From Methylobacter sp. (GTDB lineage: Bacteria > Pseudomonadota > Gammaproteobacteria > Methylococcales > Methylomonadaceae), in assembly GCA_004299305.1 (NCBI GenBank), contig SCPZ01000079.1, positions 1 to 64,000 of the forward strand: a DNA stretch of 64,000 nt, in the 5' to 3' direction. The notes below the pieces were generated by a model. It made no database searches. It was not told the origin of the DNA and saw only the letters and a list, made by a program, of their open reading frames with translations. Below, one piece after another: positions 5,911 through 42,456 of the stretch (its first letter is position 1; the number at the start of each line of letters is the position of its first letter). The translations under genes and the position numbers were made by a program.

Positions 5911-6184
5911 ACTTCGCTTTAAAGAACAAGCGCTTCAAGAGTGGCATAGTCTCGATCATACTATTCGTGAACAGTTTGCTAAAAAATTACGGGCATTAAA
6001 AGACAATCCGCGCGTTAAAAGTGCAGGTCTTGGCGGCATGAAAGACTGTTATAAAATAAAACTGCGTAAAGTCGGATATAGGCTCGTTTATGAAGTGCGT
6101 GACCGAGAACTGGTAATATTGGTGGTCGCAATTGGTAAGCGAGAGCGGAATGCAGTATACAAGATGGCAGCAAAACGGCTATAA
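5900..6184 (+). CDS. RelE/ParE-family toxin
   Basis: A 94-residue RelE-type toxin. The reading MSFKLRFKEQALQEW then LDHTIREQFAKKL, with KDCYKIKLRKVGYRLVYEV and VAIGKRERNAVY, is the classic RelE pattern in which basic residues and a late Tyr/Arg act on ribosome-bound mRNA. The start at 5900 was chosen because it gives the standard RelE N-terminus and overlaps the antitoxin stop; an upstream start at 5837 would add 21 unrelated residues. The pair interrupts the fhc operon. Near-repeated bases lie at the two edges of the insertion (5646-5662 and 6204-6223), see findings. An mRNA-interferase function is inferred from family only. Confidence 0.85.
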   Translation: MSFKLRFKEQALQEWHSLDHTIREQFAKKLRALKDNPRVKSAGLGGMKDCYKIKLRKVGYRLVYEVRDRELVILVVAIGKRERNAVYKMAAKRL

Positions 6185-6237
6185 ACTTAATCTAAAAAAA
6201 TCAACACCAGAAAAATATTAACAATGAGTTTAACAAT

Positions 6238-7134
6238 ATGATTATTAACGGTGTAACCATAGACGCTACGTTTGCCGAAGCGTTTCCGATGAAAGCAACG
6301 CGTGCCATCATCACGGCGCAAAACGAAAAATGGGCGATGATTTCGGCGCAAGCCATGACCGGTTTCGCCACCTCGGTAATTGCTTGTGGTTGTGAAGCTG
6401 GGATTGAGCGGATTTTGGATCCTTCCGAAACCCCGGATGGGCGTCCCGGTGTTTCCATCATGATTTTTGCGATGGGCGGTAAAGGCTTGGCCAAGCAGCT
6501 TGAAACCAGGGCGGGGCAGTGTGTATTAACATCGCCGACTTCAGCCTTGTTTGCCGGTATTGATGGCGGTACGCGTATAGCGTTAGGTAAAAATTTGCGC
6601 TATTTTGGCGACGGTTTTCAGGTGGCTAAACTGATTGACGGCAAGCGTTACTGGCGTATTCCGGTCATGGATGGGGAGTTTTTAGCCGAAGCGACTACAG
6701 GGCAAGTCGACGCAGTCGGCGGCGGTAATTTTCTGGTGCTGGCTCAGTCGCAACCGCAAGCGTTGTCGGCATGTGAGGCGGCGATTGAAGAAATGCGTAA
6801 AATTCCGAATGTGATCATGCCTTTTCCTGGCGGCGTTGTACGTTCGGGGTCCAAGGTCGGTTCAAAATACAAGGCATTAGGTGCATCGACCAACGATGCG
6901 TTCTGTCCGACGTTAAAAGGCATGACCAAAACCGATCTGTCGCCGGAAATTGAATCGGTTATGGAAATCGTTATCGACGGTTTAACCAAAGAAGATATTG
7001 ATAAAGCTATGAGAGTCGGTATTCAGGCGGTTTGCGATTTAGGTGCTGCGAACGGTATCAAACGCATTAGTGCGGGTAATTACGGCGGTAAGCTGGGGCC
7101 GTTCCACTTTCACTTACAGGAGATTATGGCATGA
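6238..7134 (+). CDS. fhcD: Formylmethanofuran-tetrahydromethanopterin formyltransferase
   Basis: A 298-residue Ftr homologue. It transfers the formyl group between formyl-H4MPT and the methanofuran-type coenzyme within the FhcABCD complex, the last step before formate release. Length and segments such as DTFAEAF-like TFAEAFPMK, LDPSETPDGRPG, and CPTLKG near residue 226 are those of the family, as is the GNYGGKLGPFHFHL end. There is no good Shine-Dalgarno in front of its ATG (cacc-agaaaaatattaac), unusual for a gene needed in amounts equal to fhcA; the inserted toxin pair may have altered its translation. It overlaps fhcC by four bases (ATGA). Confidence 0.93.
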   Translation: MIINGVTIDATFAEAFPMKATRAIITAQNEKWAMISAQAMTGFATSVIACGCEAGIERILDPSETPDGRPGVSIMIFAMGGKGLAKQLETRAGQCVLTSPTSALFAGIDGGTRIALGKNLRYFGDGFQVAKLIDGKRYWRIPVMDGEFLAEATTGQVDAVGGGNFLVLAQSQPQALSACEAAIEEMRKIPNVIMPFPGGVVRSGSKVGSKYKALGASTNDAFCPTLKGMTKTDLSPEIESVMEIVIDGLTKEDIDKAMRVGIQAVCDLGAANGIKRISAGNYGGKLGPFHFHLQEIMA

Positions 7135-9449: not shown

Positions 9450-9534
9450 GCGAATGTGGCGGAACTGGTAGACGCGCTGGATTTAGGTTCCAGTAGGTTA
9501 TCCTGTGAGAGTTCGAGTCTCTCCATTCGCACCA
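9450..9534 (+). tRNA. tRNA-Leu (UAG)
   Basis: The acceptor arms GCGAATG (9450-9456) and CATTCGC (9524-9530) pair, and A-CCA is encoded. The anticodon stem CTGGA/TCCAG holds the loop TTTAGGT with anticodon TAG at 9484-9486. A long variable arm (class II) and T-loop GTTCGAGTC are present. It precedes tig by 110 bases. Confidence 0.97.
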
Positions 9535-9644: not shown

Positions 9645-10940
9645 ATGCAAGTTTCTGTCGAAAAGACATCAGAATTAAGCAGGAAAATGACTGTTAGCGT
9701 GCCTGAAGAAGTTTTTCAGGAGAAGCTGGCGGCACGCTTAAAGTCGTTAGCGCGCGAAGTTAAAATTGATGGCTTTCGTCCGGGTAAGGTACCCCAGCAC
9801 GTCATTAAGAAAATGTATGGAGACCGGGTTCGTGGTGAAATAGCCGGGGACTTGATTCAATCTACTTATTATAAAGCATTGCACGAACAGGATTTAAGAC
9901 CTGCCGGTCATCCGCATATTCATCCGTTAGATGAAGCTGATGGGTTTAAATATACCGCTGAGTTTGAGGTCTACCCTGAAATATCACTCGAAGGTGTTGA
10001 GCAAATTGAAGTGCTGCGCCCTGTTGCCTCTGTTCAGGATGTCGATGTTAATGACATGATTGAGAAGCTAAGAGACCAAAAGAAAAGCTGGGTCGTCGTT
10101 GAGCGCCCATCTCAAGAGCATGATCGAGTGACGATTAGTTTTTCAGGTGTTGCCGAAGGTGAAAACTTTACAGACGGAAAAGTAGAGAATTACCAAGTTG
10201 TTTGTGGTGCTAAACAAATGATCCCAGGCTTTGAAGATAATCTGATTGGTCTCAATACGGGGGGCAATAAAACTTTTGAGCTGCCTTTTCCTGAAGAATA
10301 CGGCAATGAAAAATTAGCTGCTAAGTTGGCTGAGTTTGAAGTTGAAGTCATTAGTGTTGAAGAGCCTGTGCTGCCGGAAATCGATGATGCTTTTATTAAG
10401 GCTTATGGTATTGATGGTTCTTTGGATGGTTTTCGTGAAGATATCCGAAGTAATTTGGAGGGTGAGCTGGAGCAGGCACTGCGTGGAAAGTTGAAAACTG
10501 CAGTGATGAATGCGTTGTATGAAAAAATTCAGATTGCCGTTCCGAATACAATGGTTGATCAGGAAGTCGAAAATATGATGAAGCCGTATATCGAAACGGC
10601 CAAAAGACAGAAAATGAAGTTGGATGATTTGAAATTGCCCAGAGATGTGTTTGAGGAACATGCGAAGCGTCGTGTGGCCTTGGGGTTGATTTTAAGTGAG
10701 ATTATTCATAAAAACGATATTAAGGTGGACGATAATAAAGTACGTTCTACTATTGAAGACATGGCAAAAAGTTATGAGCGTCCTGAGGATGTTATTAATT
10801 GGTACTATTCCGATGAAAGCCGTTTGAATGATGTACAGCAGATGGTCTTGGAAAATCAAGCTATCGACTGGTTGGTTACGCAGGCAAAAGTGACTGATGA
10901 GGCTATAAGTTTTAGTGAAGCCATGAGCAAACAAGGGTAA
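9645..10940 (+). CDS. tig: Trigger factor
   Basis: A 431-residue ribosome-bound chaperone and peptidyl-prolyl isomerase. The N-terminal ribosome-binding domain includes the signature loop FRPGKVP near residue 45. An FKBP-type domain follows (about 150-245, with GFEDNLIGL and FPEEYGNEKLAAK), then the C-terminal helical chaperone arms. Full family length is about 430. The start is preceded by gttgaggtaaagaa. It heads the conserved tig-clpP-clpX-lon order, with 9 bases to clpP, so chaperone and protease subunits are likely made from the same mRNA. Confidence 0.96.
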   Translation: MQVSVEKTSELSRKMTVSVPEEVFQEKLAARLKSLAREVKIDGFRPGKVPQHVIKKMYGDRVRGEIAGDLIQSTYYKALHEQDLRPAGHPHIHPLDEADGFKYTAEFEVYPEISLEGVEQIEVLRPVASVQDVDVNDMIEKLRDQKKSWVVVERPSQEHDRVTISFSGVAEGENFTDGKVENYQVVCGAKQMIPGFEDNLIGLNTGGNKTFELPFPEEYGNEKLAAKLAEFEVEVISVEEPVLPEIDDAFIKAYGIDGSLDGFREDIRSNLEGELEQALRGKLKTAVMNALYEKIQIAVPNTMVDQEVENMMKPYIETAKRQKMKLDDLKLPRDVFEEHAKRRVALGLILSEIIHKNDIKVDDNKVRSTIEDMAKSYERPEDVINWYYSDESRLNDVQQMVLENQAIDWLVTQAKVTDEAISFSEAMSKQG

Positions 10941-10949
10941 GGAGTTTAA

Positions 10950-11597
10950 ATGTATAACCGGTACATGAGTAATCAAATAATGGCTCCAGAAGCAGCTGGT
11001 GGGTTGGTCCCTATTGTTATCGAGCAAACTGCTCGAGGTGAGCGTTCTTTCGATATTTATTCAAGATTATTGAAGGAGCGGGTGATTTTTCTGGTGGGGC
11101 AGGTTGAAGATTACTCGGCTAATCTGATTGTTGCTCAGTTGCTTTTTTTGGAGTCGGAAAATCCTGATAAAGACATTCACTTGTATATCAACTCGCCCGG
11201 CGGTTCAGTAACGGCGGGTATGTCAATTTATGACACTATGCAGTTCATTAAGCCTGATGTCAGCACCATGTGTATTGGCCAGGCTGCCAGTATGGGAGCA
11301 TTGCTGCTGACTGGCGGAGCAAAAGGTAAACGGTATTGTTTGCCTCATTCAAGAATGATGATTCATCAGCCGTTGGGTGGCTATCAGGGGCAGGCATCTG
11401 ATATTGATATTCACGCCAGAGAAATTCTGTTAATCAGGGAAAAATTGAATAAAATTCTTTCCGAGCATACCGGTCAGCCGATAGAAAAGGTTCAGCAAGA
11501 TACTGACAGAGATAATTTCTTGAGTGCAAATGACGCGGTTAGTTATGGTTTAATTGATCAAGTGTTATCGAGCCGAGCAATTGTTGCTGATAAATAA
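10950..11597 (+). CDS. clpP: ATP-dependent Clp protease proteolytic subunit
   Basis: A 215-residue serine peptidase forming the tetradecameric ClpP barrel that works with ClpX. The catalytic triad is visible as Ser114 in [11 protein letters not shown], His139 in RMMIHQP and Asp188 in DTDRDNF, all shifted by three relative to E. coli full-length numbering. The N-terminus carries a short propeptide normally removed by self-cleavage. AAGGAG at 10939-10944 sets the ATG at 10950. It lies between tig and clpX. Confidence 0.97.
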
Positions 11598-11683
11598 CGG
11601 TTGGTATTTTTTTGTATTTCGATATATTCTTGCCCAATTGAAAGTAAAAACATCATCTCTGGATGTTTGCGGGAGTCCAATTT

Positions 11684-12958
11684 ATGAGTAATGACAAAAA
11701 CAGTAAAGATGATGATAAGCTGCTTTATTGTTCTTTTTGCGGTAAAAGTCAGCATGAGGTCAGAAAGCTTATTGCAGGGCCGTCGGTCTATGTCTGCGAT
11801 GAATGTGTAGAGCTTTGCAATGATATTATAAAAGACGAATTACTGGATGATTCCTCTTCTTTTGGCGGCGGCGAGTTGCCCAAACCGAAAGAGATAAAAG
11901 AGGAGCTGGATAATTATGTTATCGGGCAGGAAAATGCAAAAAAGATTTTGGCTGTGGCTGTTTATAACCACTATAAGCGTTTGCGCAGTAAGTCTAAAAA
12001 AGACGCGGTTGAATTAGCAAAAAGTAATATTTTGTTGATTGGACCTACCGGTTCAGGAAAAACCTTGCTGGCTGAGACTTTGGCTCGTTTATTGGATGTG
12101 CCGTTTACTATTGCTGATGCAACTACTTTGACAGAAGCCGGTTATGTAGGCGAAGATGTAGAAAATATTATCCAGAAGATTCTGCAAAAATGTGATTATG
12201 ATGTAGATAAGGCTGAGACCGGCATTGTTTATATCGATGAAATCGATAAGATTTCCAGGAAATCTGATAATCCGTCTATTACTCGCGACGTTTCAGGTGA
12301 GGGTGTTCAGCAGGCTTTGTTAAAGCTGATTGAAGGTACTATTGCTTCGGTTCCGCCGCAAGGTGGGCGCAAACACCCGCAACAGGAGTTTTTGCAAGTT
12401 AACACAGCTAATATCCTGTTTATAGTTGGTGGTGCTTTTGCTGGCTTGGATAAGGTTATTAAAGATCGCTCGGAAAAAGGCGGGATAGGTTTCTCTGCTG
12501 AAATAAAAACTAAAGACGAATCTAAAAATATTGGGCAACTTTTTGCTGAGGTCGAGGCTGAAGACCTGATCAAATACGGATTGATTCCTGAGTTTGTTGG
12601 TCGTCTTCCTGTTGTTGCTACCTTAGAAGAGCTGGATGAGAAGGCGTTGGTGCAAATATTGACCGAGCCTAAAAATGCACTGGTCAAGCAATATAAGCAT
12701 TTATTTGAGATGGAAGGTGCTGAATTGGAATTTAGGGATGATTCTTTAATTGCGATTGCCCGTAAAGCTATGGAAAGAAAAACAGGCGCCAGAGGGCTTA
12801 GGACAATTGTTGAAAATGTTCTGCTAAATACCATGTATGAGTTGCCGTCTGCGGATAATATTTGCAAAGTTGTTGTTGATGGTAGTGTTATTTTAGGTGA
12901 GTCAGAGCCTATTTTGGTTTATGAAACCGAAAAGAAAAAGGCTTTAGCTGAGTTTTAG
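11684..12958 (+). CDS. clpX: ATP-dependent Clp protease ATP-binding subunit ClpX
   Basis: A 424-residue AAA+ unfoldase. The zinc-binding domain at the N-terminus has YCSFCGKS and [11 protein letters not shown] (four Cys). Walker A is GPTGSGKT and Walker B is [11 protein letters not shown]; the sensor region and IGF-type ClpP-contact loop (GGIGFSAEI) follow. The start at 11684 follows GGGAG at 11671-11675; a start 21 bases further upstream has no support. An intrinsic terminator lies 18 bases after the stop, and the 86 bases after clpP may contain a separate promoter. Confidence 0.97.
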
Positions 12959-12976
12959 AGATTATTCCCGGACAAT

Positions 12977-13013
12977 AAAAGGGAGCTTTTGTTTTTTAAA
13001 GCTCCCTTTTTTT
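12977..13013 (+). terminator. Intrinsic terminator after clpX
   Basis: AAAAGGGAGCTTT pairs with AAAGCTCCCTTTT around a T-rich loop, followed by a run of T. It separates clpX from lon. The same GGGAGC/GCTCCC stem is used at 18167 after ppiD. Confidence 0.88.
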
Positions 13014-13054
13014 GTGCGGTAGATAACCAAAAAATACTATTTTGAGTCGGAATC

Positions 13055-13082
13055 CTTGCTATTTAAATTAACGCCCCCATAA
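13055..13082 (+). promoter_or_regulatory. Candidate sigma-32 (RpoH) heat-shock promoter for lon
   Basis: CTTGCTA at 13055-13061, a 13-base spacer, and CCCCATAA at 13075-13082 match the sigma-32 consensus (CTTGAAA, 13-14 bases, CCCCATnT) except at two positions of the -35 box and the last base. The site lies about 38 bases before the lon start and after the clpX terminator, as expected for heat-induced lon. Confidence 0.7.
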
Positions 13083-13119
13083 TTTTTCTTTCTAAGAAAA
13101 TTGGTATAAGGTTCCATTT

Positions 13120-15552
13120 ATGGAAACGCACAAAATGACAGAATTACAACAAATAAATGTACTGATTCCGGTTTTGCCGCTCAGAGATGTGGTTGTTTAT
13201 CCGCACATGGTAATTCCCTTGTTTGTCGGTAGGGAAAGATCGATTGATGCTTTAGATGCCGCGATGAAAGATAGCAAACAAATTTTGCTGGTCGCGCAAA
13301 GAGAAGCGGAAGTTGATGAGCCGGATATTGCTGATCTTTATGAGGTTGGAACGTTGGCTAATATTCTGCAAATGTTGAAATTACCCGATGGGACAGTCAA
13401 GGTTTTGGTTGAGGGTATTCAGCGTAGCAAGGTATTGCATTATAAAGAAACGGAAAGTTATTTTTCTGCTGTGGTAACGGAGATTTACGACATCTTAAAA
13501 TTAACCGAGCAAGAGCAGGATGTATTGCAGCGGACGGTAATTAATTCGTTTGATCAATACGTTAAACTGAATAATAAGATTCCGCCGGAAGTCTTGAATT
13601 CGCTGTCCGGTATTGACGATCCAAGTCGACTTGCCGATACGATGGCAGCTCATATGACTTTAAAGGTCAGTGAAAAGCAGGATATCCTTGAATCTGCAGA
13701 TATTGAAAAGCGTCTTGAAGGTTTGATGACCTTAATGGAAGGGGAAGTTGATCTTCTGGAGATGGAAAAAAGAATCCGGGTGCGCGTTAAGCAGCAAATG
13801 GAGAAAAATCAAAGGGAATACTATCTGAATGAACAGATGAAGGCGATTCAAAAAGAATTGGGGGATATGGATGATGTACCCAATGAAATTGACGAGCTGG
13901 CAAAGAAAATCGAAAGCGCCGGCATGTCAAAGGAAGCCAAAACAAAAGCAGATGCAGAGCTTAATAAACTTAAGCAGATGTCACCTATGTCGGCCGAGGC
14001 AACGGTGGTACGCAATTATATTGAATGGATGGTCAATGTGCCATGGAAGAAAAAAACCAAAGTGCGGCATGATTTAAAGGTTGCCGAACAGGTTCTGGAG
14101 GCTGAGCATTATGGTTTAGACAAGGTTAAAGAGCGTATTCTTGAATATCTTGCTGTTCAGCAGCGAGTCAAGCAGCTTAAAGGGCCGATTTTGTGTTTGG
14201 TAGGGCCTCCAGGCGTAGGCAAAACCTCGCTGGGCGAGTCTATTGCGAGGGCGACCAATCGCAAATATGTGCGTATGGCCTTGGGCGGTGTGCGTGATGA
14301 AGCTGAAATTCGCGGACATCGTCGTACCTATATAGGCTCTATGCCGGGTAAGATTTTGCAGAATCTGGCAAAAGTGAAAACGCGCAACCCGATGTTTTTG
14401 CTCGATGAAATCGACAAAATGGCTGCTGATTTTCGTGGAGATCCTGCGTCGGCTTTATTGGAGGTGCTGGATCCTGAGCAGAATCACACTTTTTCCGATC
14501 ATTATTTGGAAGTGGATTTCGATCTGTCCGATGTGATGTTTGTCGCGACCGCCAACACCATGAATATTCCGCCTGCATTGCTGGATAGGATGGAGGTTAT
14601 ACGCATTGCCGGTTATACGGAAGATGAAAAAATTAACATCGCAATCCGGTATTTGATCCCCAAACAAGTTAAAAATAACGGTCTTAAAGAACGGGAAATC
14701 CAGATCGCGGAAGAGGCGGTCAGGGATATGATTCGTTATTATTCTCGAGAAGCGGGGGTTCGGAGTCTTGAGCGGGAAATTTCGAAAATTTGCCGTAAAG
14801 TGGTTAAAGATTTGTTATTGAAGCCAAGAAAAACCAAGGTCGTGGTTAATTCTGAGAATTTGGATAAATATCTGGGCGTTAAGCGTTTTCATTACGGTCT
14901 TGCTGAAGAGAAAGATCAAATTGGACAGGTTACTGGCCTAGCCTGGACTGAGGTGGGAGGTGAATTATTAACTATTGAGACGGCGGTAATTCCTGGAAAA
15001 GGTAAGCATTCGGCGACGGGTAAGCTTGGCGATGTGATGAAGGAGTCCATTGAAGCTGCGATGACGGTAGTCAGGAGTCGCTCGGAAATCTTAGGAATTG
15101 ATAATGAACTGTTTCAGAAGAATGATATACATATCCATGTTCCTGAAGGAGCGACGCCAAAAGACGGTCCTAGTGCTGGCGTGGGTATGTGTACGGCCAT
15201 TATCTCGGCTTTGACCAAGATACCTGTTCGAGCTTGTGTCGCCATGACCGGTGAAATTACCTTGCGAGGAGAGGTGCTGCCAATTGGCGGTTTAAAGGAA
15301 AAGCTTTTGGCAGCTCATCGCGGTGGAATAACAACGGTTTTAATCCCCGCCGAGAATGAAAAAGATTTGGCTGAGATACCGGAAAATATCAAACAAAATC
15401 TGGAGATAAGGCCTGTTCATTGGATAGATGAGGTATTGGAAGTTGCTTTGCAATATATGCCTGTTCCGGTTGAAAAAATGGAAACTGAAGAATCAGGAAA
15501 AAATGAAGCCGAGGCTGTAAAAACAATAAAACCTGGTTTAACGGCGCATTAA
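13120..15552 (+). CDS. lon: ATP-dependent protease Lon
   Basis: An 810-residue LonA protease that degrades misfolded and regulatory proteins in the cytoplasm. Order: N-terminal substrate-binding LAN domain (about 1-210), coiled coil, AAA+ module (Walker A GPPGVGKT, Walker [10 protein letters not shown]), and the C-terminal serine-lysine protease domain. Ser685 in [10 protein letters not shown] and Lys728 in [11 protein letters not shown] form the dyad. The start at 13120 follows TAAGG at 13107-13111; an internal ATG 15 bases later lacks a ribosome site. The C-terminal tail after about residue 775 is charged and not conserved in general. Preceded by a candidate RpoH promoter. Confidence 0.96.
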
Positions 15553-36683: not shown

Positions 36684-36846
36684 AGGCGATTGCCAAGAAT
36701 AAATATACCCAAATGGCGCAGGATTTTTGTTCGTATTCAAGGCGTAAAAATGGGCGCATAGCGAGGAGCTATGCAACCATTTTTACAACGCAGAAGACGG
36801 ACAAAAAGACCAGTCAGGTGGGTATATTTTTCGCATGAAATCGCCT
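36684..36846. mobile_element. MITE-like element, long copy (family A), upstream of hydrogenase
   Basis: A 163-base element beginning aggcgattgccaagaataa and ending tgggtatatttttcgcatg plus aaatcgcct; the ends are inverted repeats of about 28 bases. It is the long form of the element at 8011-8117, with a central part containing gggcgcatagcgaggagc and the repeated atttttac segments. It ends 44 bases before the hydrogenase small-subunit start and fills most of its upstream region, so it could carry or displace the promoter. Confidence 0.75.
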
Positions 36847-36890: not shown

Positions 36891-37832
36891 ATGACGACAG
36901 TCCTTTGGCTACAAACCGGCTCCTGCGGCGGCGATACCATGTCGATTCTATGCGCGGATAGCCCGTCGCTGGAAGAACTCGTGGATGAATACGGCATCGA
37001 AATGCTCTGGCAACCCTCCCTGTCCATAGAGCCGACGACCAGATTGGATAGTTTGATCGAGGCTATCATCGCGGATCGGCAAGTCCTCGACATTTTATGC
37101 ATTGAAGGCAGCATTATTACGGGCCCCAATGGCTCAGGCATGTACGATCCGTATCGGGGCCGTTCCAAAATGAGCCTGGTCAGTGAGCTGGCCGAAAAAG
37201 CCGAATACGTTGTAGCCCTGGGCACTTGTGCGTCGTATGGCGGCGTCCATGCCGCGCCTCCCAATCCGACCGACTGTCTCGGTTTGCAGTTCGACAAACA
37301 ATCTCCAGGCGGGCTATTGCCGAGCGAATGGCGCTCGCGCAAAGGCCTGCCGGTCATCAATATCTCGGGCTGTCCCGCTCACCCCAATGCGATGACCAAA
37401 ACCTTGGCCATGCTGGCATCGGGACTGCCAATAGAACTCGATTCTATTAACCGGCCCAAGACCTTTTTCAATAGTACTGTGCATCAAGGCTGCACCCGCA
37501 ATGAATATCACGAGTACGATGTGGAAGACACCGCGTTCGGCGGCAAGGCCTGCATGTTCTTTAACCTGGGCTGCCAAGGGCCGATCACGATGGCTATTTG
37601 CAATACCGAACTCTGGAATAATCGCAGCAGCAAGACCAGGGCAGGCGTGCCGTGTTTCGGATGCACTTCTCCCGAGTTCCCGCTGGATCAGGATTTGTTC
37701 CTCACTGAAAAAATCGGCACCATTCCGGTACATCTGCCATTGGGCGTAGAACGCGCCAATTACATGGCTTACAAAAGCTTGGCGCATGAAGCGGCTCCCG
37801 ACCGGGTGCTGAACAAGACGATGGACACTTAA
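36891..37832 (+). CDS. hupS: [NiFe] hydrogenase small subunit, group 2-like
   Basis: A 313-residue iron-sulfur subunit with no Tat signal and no C-terminal membrane helix, so it is cytoplasmic, as in cyanobacterial-type uptake (HupSL) and sensory (HupUV/HoxBC) group 2 enzymes. Cluster ligands: proximal Cys12, Cys113 (LGTCASYGG) and Cys161 (ISGCPAHPN), with Asp15 where the second Cys of CxxC is expected (SCGGDTMS). Distal His198, Cys201, Cys221 and Cys228; medial Cys237, Cys255 and Cys258. The start at 36891 gives the standard N-terminus TTVLWLQTG; upstream in-frame codons are encoded by the MITE-like element. It leads a four-gene operon with the large subunit two bases downstream. Confidence 0.9.
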   Translation: MTTVLWLQTGSCGGDTMSILCADSPSLEELVDEYGIEMLWQPSLSIEPTTRLDSLIEAIIADRQVLDILCIEGSIITGPNGSGMYDPYRGRSKMSLVSELAEKAEYVVALGTCASYGGVHAAPPNPTDCLGLQFDKQSPGGLLPSEWRSRKGLPVINISGCPAHPNAMTKTLAMLASGLPIELDSINRPKTFFNSTVHQGCTRNEYHEYDVEDTAFGGKACMFFNLGCQGPITMAICNTELWNNRSSKTRAGVPCFGCTSPEFPLDQDLFLTEKIGTIPVHLPLGVERANYMAYKSLAHEAAPDRVLNKTMDT

Positions 37833-37834
37833 CC

Positions 37835-39373
37835 ATGTCCAGAAGAATCATTCAAATCGACCTTAACCGGGTTGAGGGCGATCTCGATTTCCAGCTGGAA
37901 CTGGAAGACAATAAGGTCGTTGATGCCCGTTGTATCGGCTCCCTTTATAGGGGCTTCGAACAAATCCTCGTGGGCCGCACTCCCAAAGATTCCCTGGTGA
38001 TTACTCCCCGCATCTGCGGCATCTGCGGCACCGCGCAATTAAACGCTGCGGTGCTCGCCTTGGAACAGGTCGGCGGCATTCCCGTACCGCCTGCGGCTAT
38101 TCGTATCCGCAACCTGTGTTTGATGGCCGAAACGGTGCAAAGCGACCTGCGGCAATCCTTTATGTTTTTCACCGCCGACTTTTGCCATCCCAAATACGCC
38201 GAGCGCTCGTTTTATCAAAAAGCACGGACGGCCTTCCTGCCGTTTAAGGGCTCGGTTCATCGCGGCGCTCTCGAACATTCGCGGCATATCGTCGAAATTA
38301 TCGCCCTGTTTGGCGGTCAGTGGCCGCACTCCTCTTATATGTTGCCGGGCGGCGTGACGTCGCCTGCAAGTAGTCGCCACGTTATCGACAGCCTGTCCAT
38401 ACTGAACAAACTGACCCGCTGGTTCGAACAGAGCGTCATCGGCACAGACCTGGACTCCTGGTTGGCCTTGCAATCCGCCGACGAATTCTTCACCTGGTTG
38501 GGTGCGAAAGATGCCCACGCCGACAGCGCCATCGGACTGTTCACGCTGATGAGCCGCGACATAGGCCTGCATCGTTTGGGTTTTGGCACCCCGCACATGC
38601 TAAGTTACGGCGCTTATGACGACCCGGAGGATGCCGGGACTTTTCCGCCGCTACGCAAGCATTTGTTCAAGGCCGGTTTCCTCAATGGCGATACCGGCAA
38701 CATTGAGCCTTTCGAGCAAGCCGAAATCACCGAACATGTGCGCTATTCCTGGTTCCAGCCATATTCCGGCGGCCGTCATCCGTTTCAGGGCCTAACCATA
38801 CCGGATTATCAGCCTCATTCCGATCGCTACACTTGGTGCAAGGCGCCCCGCTATCAAAATAAAGTCGTGCAAACCGGCCCCTTGGCGGATGCGTTAATCG
38901 ACGGCGAGCCTTTGATCCGCTCGCTATACCAGGCGGAGGGCGGCAATGCCTGGCTGCGCCAGTTCGCCCGTTTACATCGTACCGCCAGGCTGTTGCATAA
39001 AATGCGGGAAATACTGCACGAGCTGGCCGCACAGCCTAACGACCCGCATATGATTTCCCCGGATGAGAAAGAAATTCCCGATGGCGAAGGCTTCGGGCTG
39101 GTAACGGCGGCGCGCGGCTCGTTGGGGCATTGGCTGCAAATTACCGACGGCGTTATTAGCCGCTATCAAGTCATTACGCCAACCGCCTGGAATGCATCGC
39201 CTAAAGACAGCGAAGGCCGGTACGGACATTGGGAGAGCAGTTTGATTGGCTTGACTGTCGACGATCCCGACGACCCTGTGGAAATCGGCCATATTATTCG
39301 CTCCCATGACCCCTGCCTGGTCTGTACCGTGCATCTACTCGACACCGGCAAGCGCATCACCGTATGGCCCTAA
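37835..39373 (+). CDS. hupL: [NiFe] hydrogenase large subunit, group 2-like
   Basis: A 512-residue catalytic subunit. The nickel ligands are all present: Cys61 and Cys64 in RICGICGTAQ, and Cys494 and Cys497 in DPCLVCTVH. Position 68, His in many hydrogenases, is Gln here. After His500 a 12-residue tail (LLDTGKRITVWP) remains, the segment normally cut off by a maturation protease once nickel is in place; the protease gene is next. H2-sensing hydrogenases of the HupUV class typically lack such a tail. H2 oxidation at the Ni-Fe site would feed electrons to the small subunit. No hyp maturation genes are in the window. Confidence 0.92.
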   Translation: MSRRIIQIDLNRVEGDLDFQLELEDNKVVDARCIGSLYRGFEQILVGRTPKDSLVITPRICGICGTAQLNAAVLALEQVGGIPVPPAAIRIRNLCLMAETVQSDLRQSFMFFTADFCHPKYAERSFYQKARTAFLPFKGSVHRGALEHSRHIVEIIALFGGQWPHSSYMLPGGVTSPASSRHVIDSLSILNKLTRWFEQSVIGTDLDSWLALQSADEFFTWLGAKDAHADSAIGLFTLMSRDIGLHRLGFGTPHMLSYGAYDDPEDAGTFPPLRKHLFKAGFLNGDTGNIEPFEQAEITEHVRYSWFQPYSGGRHPFQGLTIPDYQPHSDRYTWCKAPRYQNKVVQTGPLADALIDGEPLIRSLYQAEGGNAWLRQFARLHRTARLLHKMREILHELAAQPNDPHMISPDEKEIPDGEGFGLVTAARGSLGHWLQITDGVISRYQVITPTAWNASPKDSEGRYGHWESSLIGLTVDDPDDPVEIGHIIRSHDPCLVCTVHLLDTGKRITVWP

Positions 39374-39376
39374 GGT

Positions 39377-39829
39377 ATGGGGGTACGGCACATCATTTGT
39401 TTTGGCAATGAACTGCACGGGGATGACGGCTTTGGTATCAGTGTCTACGCCCAGCTTCGCCAATTGACTTGGCCGAGCGATGTCGAGGTGTTCAATGCGG
39501 GCATCGCCGGACTGAATGCACTCCGTTTTCTTGAGTCTTGCCAGCAGGCGATTCTGGTCGATGCCTTGGCTAACGTTGGTCATGTCGGCGAGGTTTGCCT
39601 ACTTAGGCCGGAAGATTTGGCCGACAGCCCCGTGCAACTCACCGGCCACGGCCAGGGAATTCCGTATTTGCTGGAGGCGCTTAAGGTTATCCGGGAACCG
39701 CTGCCGGATATTCTGATCGTGGGTGTTGAAATAGTCGCCGTTACCCCATTTTCTCCCGGCCTGTCCGATAGCACCGAGCAAGCCGTATCCAAAACCGTCC
39801 AATTGATACGAGGTCTTTTGCCGGAATGA
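39377..39829 (+). CDS. Hydrogenase maturation protease (HupW/HybD family)
   Basis: A 150-residue endopeptidase that removes the C-terminal tail of the large subunit after nickel insertion. The metal-sensing residues are visible: Glu13 in FGNELHGDDGFG (usually Glu or Asp), the Asp in LVDALANVGHVGEV and the His in LTGHGQGIPYLLEAL. Length is typical. It is three bases after the large subunit and overlaps the next gene by four bases (ATGA), so the protease and the signalling protein are made together with the hydrogenase. Confidence 0.9.
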   Translation: MGVRHIICFGNELHGDDGFGISVYAQLRQLTWPSDVEVFNAGIAGLNALRFLESCQQAILVDALANVGHVGEVCLLRPEDLADSPVQLTGHGQGIPYLLEALKVIREPLPDILIVGVEIVAVTPFSPGLSDSTEQAVSKTVQLIRGLLPE

Positions 39830-42456
39830 GCCGTCAGAGTTCAAATTTTCGCGATATTATCGTCGAATCGCTTACCTTCATTGACTTAGCCGATCCGCCA
39901 CGCTGGAAAGGCCGCTTGCGAGCGCCCGGTGAGCATCGCTCTATCGATATTCTTATTTTCAACATTGACGGCCAGTTCCAGGCAGTCCCGGCCCTCTGCT
40001 CTCATGAAGGTTACGATCTGACGCACTGTTCGTTAGTCAATGGGAATAGCCTTGTTTGTCCTGCACACAGCCAACGCATCGAGTTGAAAATTTCAAAATA
40101 CCGTGTCAAAGAACATGACGGTCAATTTTGGCTGTCCCTAAATGAAACCGACTCGCTGCCAACAACTGAAAATACCTTGTGTGACGGAGATTCCGAAACT
40201 GTGCTTCAGTTGCGGGAGGAAATCGCTAAACTACGGTTAGCCAACCTGAAACAGGAAAGGCAAATCCTCGTCATTACCCAAAGCATGGATGCCATGCTTT
40301 GCGAATCGGAACAGCAAAAGCTAAAACTCAAAGAAAAAATGCACCAGGAGCAAAGCCTCTGCCGCTTTGTTGATCGCGTCCTGGATACCATGGACGATCT
40401 CCTGTTCGTTATCGATACGGAAGGCCGGATTTTGCAACTGAATAGCGCAGTGGAGCGCGAACTCGGGCTTAGCGAAACTGAATTACTGGGAACCTGCATC
40501 GACGAATTGCTTCCTGCCGCCGAACAACAGCATCTTGCCGGGCATTTACCTGCCTTGTTCTGGCCGGTCCGATCGGTGTTGTTGGAAACCATCCGCCTTA
40601 CCGGATACTACACTGGTGAACATGGACTGTTAGGCAAAAATCGGGATAAGCAAACATCCATCTATTGGCTGAAGAGCAGCTTATTGCACTCGGAGCAGGG
40701 AAAGCTGGAAGGCGCCGTCGTAACCGCCTTGAACATCAACGAGTTGAAGGACAGGGAAACCCGGCTGCGACTGAGCGCCAAAGTCTTCGAAAATAGTAGC
40801 GAGGCGATTTTCATCACCGATCCGCAGGGCACTATACTGGAGGTTAATACAGCATTCTGCTCAATCACCGGCTATGAGCGCTCCGAAATGCTGGGTCGAA
40901 ATCCCCGTATGCTGAAATCGAAACTGCATGATCGATCATTTTATAAACATTTATGGCTGTCGCTATTGAATGCGGGGGAATGGAAAGGAGAAATCTGGGA
41001 CCGCCGGAAAAACGGCGAATTCTGCCCGATGTTGCTCAGCATCAACGCCGTCACCGACCAACGGGGCCAGTTAACGCATTATGTGGCAATCTCCACGGAC
41101 ATCAGTAATCAGAAACAAACTGAACAGGAACTCAAACAACTGGCGTACTACGATGTGCTCACCGGCCTTCCCAACCGGTTTCTGTTCAAGGATAGATTCG
41201 AACACGAAATCTGTTTGGCGCAACGTAATAACACCCGGCTCGCGTTGTTTTTTCTTGATCTTGATCATTTCAAGAACGTTAACGATACGCTCGGGCATTG
41301 GGCTGGCGACTGCTTGTTGCAGAGCATCGCAACGCGTATTCAAAACTGCTTACGTAAATCAGACACCGTTGCCCGTATGGGCGGAGACGAGTTTACCATC
41401 ATCCTGCCCGGATTAACCGGCATCATCGACGCCACCGATCTGGCCCGAAACCTGATCGATGTCGTGACCAGACCGGTGCAGATTAAAGACCATACGGTTT
41501 TCGTCGGCGTCAGTATCGGCATTGCGATTTTTCCCAATGACGGCAATGATTTCTATACCCTGACCAAACATGCCGATACTGCTATGTATGCGTCCAAAGC
41601 CAAAGGCCGGGGTATGTTCCAGTACTTCGAAGCGGGCATGAACGAGGCGGCGCACCAGAGGCTATTACTGGAAAACGCATTACGAATAGCCATAAAACAA
41701 GAAGAATTCCAGCTGTATTACCAGCCCAAAGCCGATAGCCATTTAATCAGGATAACCGGCGCTGAAGCGCTGATTCGCTGGAAGCGGCCCGGCTTCGGCA
41801 TTATTCCTCCGGACCGCTTCATCGCTATCGCCGAGGAAACGGCTTTAATTATTCCGCTCGGCAAATGGATATTGAAGACAGCCTGTTTGCAAGCCAATGT
41901 ATGGGCCGACAAATTGTCGGAATTTCGAATCGCTATCAATCTTTCGCCCCTGCAACTTTTGGCCGATGATTTTATCGATGTTCTCGATAGCATTCTGGCG
42001 GAAACCCGCACCAATCCCGAATGGATTGAATTGGAAGTGACCGAAGGCCTGGTCATGCATGACATCAAAAAAGCGACCGAGCGCTTACATCAAATCAAGG
42101 AGCGCGGTATTCACGTCGCCATGGACGACTTCGGCACCGGCTATTCATCGTTGTCCTATTTACAAAAACTGCCCATCCAAACGCTTAAAATAGACCGGTC
42201 ATTCATTAAGGCTTACAGCGACGATCCGGCCTCGAGCGAGGCGGCATTTATCAAGACTATCGTATCGCTGGGGCAGGTTTTGAATATGAAGATTGTCGCC
42301 GAAGGCGTAGAAACCGAATCCCAGTTGAGGCTATTACAGTCTTACGGCTGCCATGAGATTCAAGGATATTACCTCTCGCCGCCGCTGCCTGCTGATGAAT
42401 TTCAGGAACGCTGGATAGATCAGGGTATTGATGAAGCTAAAATCGTTCCGCTTTAA
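39826..42456 (+). CDS. Rieske-PAS-PAS-GGDEF-EAL signalling protein
   Basis: An 876-residue multi-domain protein. The Rieske [2Fe-2S] domain (about 10-108) has all four ligands: Cys58 and His60 in ALCSHEG, Cys78 and His81 in VCPAHSQ. A coiled coil (about 125-180) links to PAS 1 (about 181-300) and PAS 2 (about 317-435). The GGDEF domain has intact GGDEF at 519-523 and an inhibitory RxxD site (RKSD, 510-513). The EAL domain has EAL at 647-649 and DDFGTG at 767-772. So both c-di-GMP synthesis and breakdown motifs look intact. No membrane segment is present. Overlap with the protease gene and the operon position suggest the Rieske domain takes electrons from the hydrogenase; this is inference. 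Confidence 0.9.
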   Translation: MSRQSSNFRDIIVESLTFIDLADPPRWKGRLRAPGEHRSIDILIFNIDGQFQAVPALCSHEGYDLTHCSLVNGNSLVCPAHSQRIELKISKYRVKEHDGQFWLSLNETDSLPTTENTLCDGDSETVLQLREEIAKLRLANLKQERQILVITQSMDAMLCESEQQKLKLKEKMHQEQSLCRFVDRVLDTMDDLLFVIDTEGRILQLNSAVERELGLSETELLGTCIDELLPAAEQQHLAGHLPALFWPVRSVLLETIRLTGYYTGEHGLLGKNRDKQTSIYWLKSSLLHSEQGKLEGAVVTALNINELKDRETRLRLSAKVFENSSEAIFITDPQGTILEVNTAFCSITGYERSEMLGRNPRMLKSKLHDRSFYKHLWLSLLNAGEWKGEIWDRRKNGEFCPMLLSINAVTDQRGQLTHYVAISTDISNQKQTEQELKQLAYYDVLTGLPNRFLFKDRFEHEICLAQRNNTRLALFFLDLDHFKNVNDTLGHWAGDCLLQSIATRIQNCLRKSDTVARMGGDEFTIILPGLTGIIDATDLARNLIDVVTRPVQIKDHTVFVGVSIGIAIFPNDGNDFYTLTKHADTAMYASKAKGRGMFQYFEAGMNEAAHQRLLLENALRIAIKQEEFQLYYQPKADSHLIRITGAEALIRWKRPGFGIIPPDRFIAIAEETALIIPLGKWILKTACLQANVWADKLSEFRIAINLSPLQLLADDFIDVLDSILAETRTNPEWIELEVTEGLVMHDIKKATERLHQIKERGIHVAMDDFGTGYSSLSYLQKLPIQTLKIDRSFIKAYSDDPASSEAAFIKTIVSLGQVLNMKIVAEGVETESQLRLLQSYGCHEIQGYYLSPPLPADEFQERWIDQGIDEAKIVPL

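Follow-up and report, generated by a model that had tools for sequence, protein, structure and literature searches.

How does a hydrogenase that senses H2 hand its signal to the protein acting on it, and might a Rieske iron–sulfur domain be part of the connection? This question is raised by an operon at positions 36891–42456 on the plus strand of a Methylobacter sp. contig (SCPZ01000079.1, assembly GCA_004299305.1). Here, the co-directional genes for the small subunit, the large subunit and the maturation protease of a [NiFe] hydrogenase are followed by a gene for a single protein that joins a Rieske domain, a coiled coil, two PAS domains, and the GGDEF and EAL domains of cyclic di-GMP (c-di-GMP) turnover. 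The window—the whole stretch of DNA analyzed—comprises bases 1–64,000 of this 66,254-base contig, which belongs to a genome of 4.49 Mb; M. tundripaludum SV96 is the closest named relative at the hydrogenase locus, with 93% large-subunit identity among the best 80 of 570 relatives. The original prediction, made from the letters of this stretch, had proposed a route from H2 via the hydrogenase clusters, the Rieske domain, and PAS to c-di-GMP turnover. We consider it slightly more probable than an even bet (roughly 55%) that the tethered Rieske head exchanges electrons with a group 2c-like, H2-sensing hydrogenase and gates c-di-GMP turnover.

The four genes are tightly packed. The small subunit (36891–37832, 313 residues), the large subunit (37835–39373, 512 residues), the protease of the HycI/HupD type (39377–39829, 150 residues), and the fusion (39826–42456, 876 residues) are spaced by 2 bases, 3 bases, and a 4-base overlap of protease and fusion. 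The small-subunit start was set at the ATG at 36891, which matches relatives, within an open frame reaching back to an ATG at 36771. In the fusion, assigned with Pfam, a Rieske domain of the ferredoxin type (39850–40137, about residues 9–104) carries the ligands C58, H60, C78, and H81. A coiled-coil-like helix of 66 residues follows (40192–40389, residues 123–188, from the AlphaFold2 helix and a profile), then PAS1 (40393–40734, about residues 190–303, from the secondary structure of the model and Pfam PAS), PAS2 (40798–41100, about residues 325–425), the GGDEF domain (41143–41610, residues 440–595, 171 bits), and the EAL domain (41674–42384, residues 617–853, 232 bits). The Pfam PAS match falls into two stretches, the best at 320–426. 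The GGDEF motif at 519–523 ([GS]GDEF), the RxxD site (R510, D513), and the EAL catalytic signature, which we take to be the residues known for these enzymes, are intact and kept throughout the fusion alignment, apart from one sensor (L063) that runs off its contig. Both output domains look active by these motifs and, hence, the sign of the response is not predictable. The gaps, the Rieske residues, and the c-di-GMP motifs with RxxD that had been predicted for these four packed genes all hold in the reading frames, Pfam matches, and alignments.

Is this arrangement peculiar to one genome? A partial draw from the host's family comprised 151 genomes. Of these, 16 encode a large subunit with an identity of 67% or more, and the N-terminus of the fusion (at least 158 bits) occurs in exactly those 16—the next match, at 39 bits, being a short Rieske protein. 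All 16 have the order small subunit, large subunit, protease, fusion, and the Rieske fusion always lies beside the hydrogenase. Nine further family genomes carry a large subunit of 59–61% identity and the same four-gene order with a partner that starts at the coil and bears no Rieske domain, and in one more (G034), with 43% identity, the partner is a PAS–histidine kinase. With 16 of the 151 genomes bearing the Rieske fusion and nine more the unit without it, the four-gene unit is conserved beyond chance. The flanking genes mostly differ and are common mainly to near relatives; hence, the conserved unit is the four genes. In one Methylobacter metagenome-assembled genome (L050/L079), the sensor gene is spread over two overlapping frames of 416 and 469 residues, as either a real split or an assembly error.

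The Rieske module also reaches beyond the family, and beyond c-di-GMP. Scanning named genomes with the large-subunit alignment gave 570 confirmed relatives. The best 80 were used; since their loci were found via the hydrogenase, hydrogenase linkage is here by construction. By our own profile, the module is present in 14 of these loci: eight Methylobacter/Methylococcaceae fusions, five Rhodocyclales, and SAR324. In the Rhodocyclales (L096, L097, L099, L101, and L103; Dechloromonas, Zoogloea oleivorans, and three others), Rieske, coil, and PAS are followed by HisKA and HATPase domains. In SAR324 (L086, 3813–6689), a Rieske reading frame, an in-frame TGA, and a coil–PAS–kinase–receiver frame succeed each other; the single TGA is either genuine or an artifact of assembly. 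The union of Rieske and signaling domains in one polypeptide, which had been proposed for c-di-GMP, is thus real in the window and is not limited to c-di-GMP. It is these Rieske domains on kinases beside sister hydrogenases that provide the strongest evidence for a role of the Rieske domain in H2 signaling rather than in c-di-GMP as such.

Searches that start from the Rieske module itself are free of this construction. A Rieske-plus-coil profile was run against 369 genomes of the class and 398 of the phylum, which are partial and overlapping samples; the profile is tuned to this module and at most eight first-look candidates were scored per genome in the rows shown. Within the class, it matched only the window's own genome and, by the coil only, G010. 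Within the phylum, besides the own genome, G528 yielded a fusion and G663 a short Rieske protein. The G528 locus consists of small subunit, large subunit, protease, and a 1012-residue Rieske–coil–PAS–GGDEF–EAL frame; found via its Rieske module, this fusion yet lies beside a hydrogenase, which, like those of the Rhodocyclales and SAR324, belongs to the window's clade. On the short contig, of 4029 bases, that bears the stand-alone Rieske protein of G663, no hydrogenase is seen. Five Rieske-bearing genomes searched again with the profile gave one match each. Far from being unique to one genome or unlinked elsewhere, which would have spoken against the original prediction, the fusion is found in 16 of 151 family genomes and G528, and it adjoins the hydrogenase in 16 of 16 and in G528.

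The element that these partner proteins share is the long helix. Its profile matches 53 of 109 loci (some records being present twice), namely all 30 with a Rieske domain and many without, across output types; L093 and L094 are exceptions by this profile within the hydrogenase clade of the window. Being common to Rieske and Rieske-less partners, the helix is, by inference from these profiles, the leading candidate for the element that docks onto the hydrogenase, and it is presumed to mediate dimerization too. This sharing can also be turned against a wired Rieske head: Rieske-less partners retain the coil, so that coil docking alone seems enough, and the hydrogenase might signal by coil conformation, a mode that has been discussed for HoxBC and HoxJ, while the Rieske domain serves as an independent input for O2 or the cellular redox state, vetoing or tuning the H2 signal. 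In its favor, the Rieske head sits at the outer end on a flexible tether, and O2 is relevant to the host as an aerobic methanotroph. A general redox sensor would, however, be expected on other signaling proteins as well, and both Rieske–coil fusions among the class and phylum genomes (window and G528) adjoin a hydrogenase—an argument that the tuned profile, the overlapping samples, the few candidates per genome, and the roughly 4-kb contig of G663 make weak. We regard such an independent input as rather unlikely.

Which type of hydrogenase does the fusion accompany? The small subunit (Pfam Oxidored_q6, 92 bits; NiFe_hyd_SSU_C, 84 bits) is of the cytosolic group 2 type; no Tat leader is seen on its 313 residues. 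It keeps C12, D15, C113, and C161, then H198, C201, C221, and C228, and finally C237, C255, and C258, which we take, by the numbering of standard hydrogenases, to belong to the proximal, distal, and medial clusters, respectively. Among 95 rows, 82 have Asp at position 15, where Huc has Asn; in place of H198, the alignment with Huc shows Gln. For the small subunit, the closest solved structure is that of Huc (7uur/7utd, E 1e-84), and Huc is also nearest to the large subunit among solved structures. The large subunit (NiFeSe_Hases, 270 bits) bears the motifs RICGICG (59–65) and DPCLVCTVH (492–500) and, after the active-site histidine, a 12-residue C-terminal extension, LLDTGKRITVWP, of a kind also present in the other sensor-linked large subunits aligned. 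The protease (Pfam HycI, 50 bits; NCBIfam TIGR00072, 99 bits and above cut-off) is presumably there for cleaving this extension.

In a large-subunit tree of 38 chosen rows, all 29 sensor-linked rows, the window included, fall on one side (100/100), and the 2a-type references fall on their own side (100/100), without the window's large subunit. The references were three of 2a type (two plasmid-borne operons and L074) and two of 2b type (HoxC of C. necator pHG1 and HupV of Azospirillum), next to four ungrouped rows; Huc itself stands outside this tree. The literature describes the L2 motif of group 2c as SFDxCLVCTVH and files Thiomargarita under 2c despite an F-to-H change (PMC4853749). The window's SHDPCLVCTVH agrees in nine of the ten specified residues, the F-to-H change being the same as in Thiomargarita. 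That study also cites a M. tundripaludum hydrogenase as its best match (PMC4853749), and 2c hydrogenases are reported in Methylobacter (PMC12810054). In HydDB, group 2c bears the label "Diguanylate cyclase-linked (putative)" and is described as possibly sensing H2 and acting on other processes by way of cyclic di-GMP (PMC5037454); the original prediction was thus right that 2c hydrogenases have been predicted to adjoin GGDEF/EAL proteins. The probable co-transcription that goes with this class is mirrored by the 4-base overlap of the GGDEF/EAL gene with the protease gene. Apart from the 2a and 2b references and together with the 2c enzymes of the literature, the window's large subunit—whose placement between 2a and 2b/2c had been left to a phylogeny—belongs with group 2c on the grounds of tree and literature, as distinct from the HydDB classifier.

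Could it still be an ordinary uptake hydrogenase, with the c-di-GMP protein merely co-transcribed? Its active-site and cluster ligands are kept, and among solved structures the respiratory Huc is nearest to it. In the wider sensor-linked group, however, 82 of 91 rows have a downstream histidine kinase, GGDEF, or Rieske-sensor gene by our own profiles—with the output domain changing between them—which argues for sensing and not for energy supply; the other nine lack a signaling partner by these profiles, some due to a contig end. In addition, the unit holds no electron-acceptor subunit, and only near relatives share its flanks. Simple uptake is thus quite improbable. A more distant clade of 43 rows has histidine kinases in 35.

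Several loci of this comparison show arrangements of their own. In L139, L141, L143, L144, L146, and L150, all from sulfate reducers or their relatives, a GGDEF gene of its own comes after the kinase linked to the hydrogenase, so that H2 would seem to reach c-di-GMP by a phosphorelay. In L107, protease and kinase share a 1061-residue frame, with the protease at the N-terminal end (Pfam: HycI 39–154, HisKA 403–468, HATPase, receivers, and Hpt), and L093 and L094 carry a protease–kinase fusion too by our own profiles; in these three, the maturation protease may stay within the sensor complex. Two hydrogenase operons lie side by side in L119 (Desulfobacteraceae), L135 (Desulfobacterales), and L121 (Rhodocyclaceae), and in L119 and L135 the first of the two has protease and kinase.

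Can the Rieske domain carry electrons? The four ligands are kept in 15 of 15 Rieske rows of the fusion alignment, which leaves out the frame-split L050 (its ligand stretch is present under L079), and in all 14 Rieske rows from the 80-locus set, which overlaps with it. The CxH/CxxH pattern persists in all Rieske copies examined at an overall identity down to about 30%, and a dN/dS of 0.158 in the Rieske core indicates that the domain is under purifying selection. An AlphaFold2 model of 440 residues displays a Rieske beta domain, a tether, the long helix at 123–188, PAS1, and PAS2; at residues 107–122, the pLDDT drops below 50, as a flexible tether would show. Since Foldseek and VIA-align searches with this model were swamped by its PAS domains, the Rieske part was folded separately. 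Structure comparison places this predicted part in the Rieske fold, with electron-carrying dioxygenase ferredoxins as best matches.

How did the module come to be where it is? The Rieske modules group together (16 rows, 100/100) when compared with ten stand-alone Rieske proteins, a set of one narrow type, from the host's family. That the Rieske-bearing hydrogenases form a single clade was rejected (p-AU 0.0025; 17 of 42 chosen rows; four changes), and one gain with three losses would cost the same as four gains. Long branches are those of the G528 large subunit, flagged by the program, and of the Rieske domains of G528 and G663. A plasmid origin of the fusion was discarded: at E 1e-5, none of 72,556 plasmid records matched its N-terminus.

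Such gain and loss fits an accessory role, and the best structural relatives being shuttle ferredoxins suggests one: the Rieske domain might drain electrons to a cellular carrier and reset the sensor hydrogenase, with signaling left to coil and PAS. Similarly, two plasmid-borne operons of the Huc type (2a), from Sphingopyxis and Sulfobacillus (L180, 8841–9707; L181, 7821–8672), encode a NifU-family protein whose C-terminus bears a Rieske motif, which also bears out the original prediction's statement that 2a operons can contain a Rieske protein. Nevertheless, the window's operon has no ferredoxin reductase-like gene, and a drain leaves the fusion to a signaling protein unexplained; we judge it improbable.

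Several observations weigh against a Rieske head that is wired into the signal. The first is that the operon occurs without it, in the nine family genomes and in other bacteria: Rieske-less GGDEF–EAL partners are found in Sedimenticola, Gallionellaceae, Hydrogenophilales, Burkholderiaceae, Methylomonas, and Sulfurimonas, and an Ideonella plasmid carries a 2c-like operon whose partner has coil, PAS, GGDEF, and EAL and no Rieske motif. Judged from gene content, the Rieske domain is hence dispensable for pairing this hydrogenase with GGDEF–EAL. The second is the modest Pfam score of the domain: the window's match is short (residues 41–86, 25.8 bits versus a cut-off of 20.3), and L101 and L103 miss E 0.001. 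The third is that NirD, a Rieske-fold protein without a cluster, ranks seventh among the structural matches. The last two points would also fit a domain that has lost its cluster and persists only as a docking fold; with all four ligands kept throughout, down to about 30% identity, such a loss is very improbable indeed.

A fourth point concerns the step from Rieske to PAS. By sequence, PAS2 is nearest to the flavin PAS domains of MmoS (E 7e-27) and NifL, and its modeled fold resembles those of NifL and LOV domains; it is at most a candidate for flavin binding. The pocket of FAD-binding PAS domains consists of an Falpha Trp plus Asn and/or His (PMC10468136). In PAS2, aligned with positions assigned by eye, the Trp is kept (W377, Falpha), the Asn position is D392, and the His position is Pro. 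Rieske ferredoxins typically have potentials of about -100 to -150 mV. If PAS2 held a flavin at the -290 mV reported for MmoS (PMC9668731), electron flow to it from such a ferredoxin would be uphill. With only one of three FAD residues kept and a step that would be uphill, we do not adopt a flavin in PAS2 as the next electron acceptor after the Rieske center, and the passage into PAS that the original prediction proposed is doubtful if electron transfer is meant.

Weighing these points, direct electron transfer between hydrogenase and Rieske domain still seems the best single explanation of the sequence evidence. The signaling partner of a cytosolic 2c H2 sensor would have gained, or kept, a Rieske head. 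The heterodimer of small and large subunit—the latter trimmed at its C-terminal extension by the protease in maturation—would split H2 at the NiFe site and pass the electrons along three iron–sulfur clusters to an exit at the distal cluster, as to menaquinone in Huc. The partner would dock via its N-terminal coiled coil, and the Rieske domain, on a flexible linker before it, would take electrons from the distal cluster; on the predicted model, the tethered Rieske domain, next to the presumed docking helix, would be in a good position to accept them. Its redox state would then alter the state of coil and PAS and, with it, the balance of GGDEF synthesis versus EAL breakdown of c-di-GMP. The stricter version, in which the Rieske [2Fe-2S] center is a redox switch reduced by H2-derived electrons within a wired H2-to-c-di-GMP complex (H2-to-kinase in the Rhodocyclales), we put just short of an even chance.

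What else do operon and genome offer? In 200 bases upstream of the small-subunit start, aligned for 16 clade A loci, the strict sigma54 pattern occurs in 0 of 16 and no block is conserved except near the start codon; promoter and terminator scans gave no signal above chance. Elsewhere in the genome, HypD and genes with HypB-, HypE-, and HypF-type domains were found. The hyp gene cluster (L175, contig C92) also includes a Shedu (SduA C-terminal) defence-like gene at 5994–6767 as well as HybE and a 417-residue hydrogenase large-subunit match. Contig C118 (L176) bears a second, Hox-like hydrogenase set, with a large subunit and genes that are HoxU- and HoxF-like by domain, a possible target of regulation. 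Within the window, Rfam at gathering thresholds gave only three tRNAs; trigger factor and Lon protease genes of the ordinary kind lie at 9645–15552, close to a tRNA at 9450.

For sensory hydrogenases, the transfer of the signal to the partner is described as still under investigation, even for HoxBC and HoxJ (PMC6978683). A fused Rieske center would provide a spectroscopic handle on this missing step, with ligands that can be mutated singly, and the natural set of partners—Rieske with GGDEF–EAL, Rieske with kinase, and Rieske-less within the same family—permits a comparison of what the Rieske domain contributes. If the proposed electron exchange is true, H2 may help to set the choice of a methanotroph between moving and settling, and similar pairings in other bacteria suggest that electrons from H2 may directly switch bacterial behavior.

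How does the system compare with those already known? HoxBC/HupUV with HoxJ/HupT (group 2b) likewise join a cytosolic hydrogenase to a signaling protein; their output is a histidine kinase and, in the literature consulted, no Rieske domain is described. HoxC and HupV end at ...CTVH, whereas the window's large subunit extends further. Huc of Mycobacterium smegmatis (group 2a; 7utd/7uur), the closest solved structure for both subunits, is respiratory, with menaquinone at the distal cluster (PMC10017518), and has Asn and Gln where the window has D15 and H198. MmoS and NifL are the FAD PAS proteins nearest to PAS2 in sequence and near in fold, and of their diagnostic residues PAS2 keeps the Trp only. 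The Rieske–PAS–kinases of Rhodocyclales share a homologous front of Rieske, coil, and PAS and the same hydrogenase clade, but end in a kinase instead of c-di-GMP enzymes. Group 2c comes closest, likewise with a cytosolic small–large pair and an adjacent GGDEF/EAL protein (PMC5037454) and with Methylobacter as a cited source (PMC4853749, PMC12810054). In contrast, the window's partner has an N-terminal Rieske domain, which the 2c literature consulted does not mention; the EAL gene cluster in a table of PMC12727194 lists EAL, GGDEF, PAS, and GAF without Rieske, and no description of a Rieske–GGDEF fusion was found in a literature search that covered subscription journals thinly. The pairing of hydrogenase and c-di-GMP is a known proposal, and the Rieske domain is what is new.

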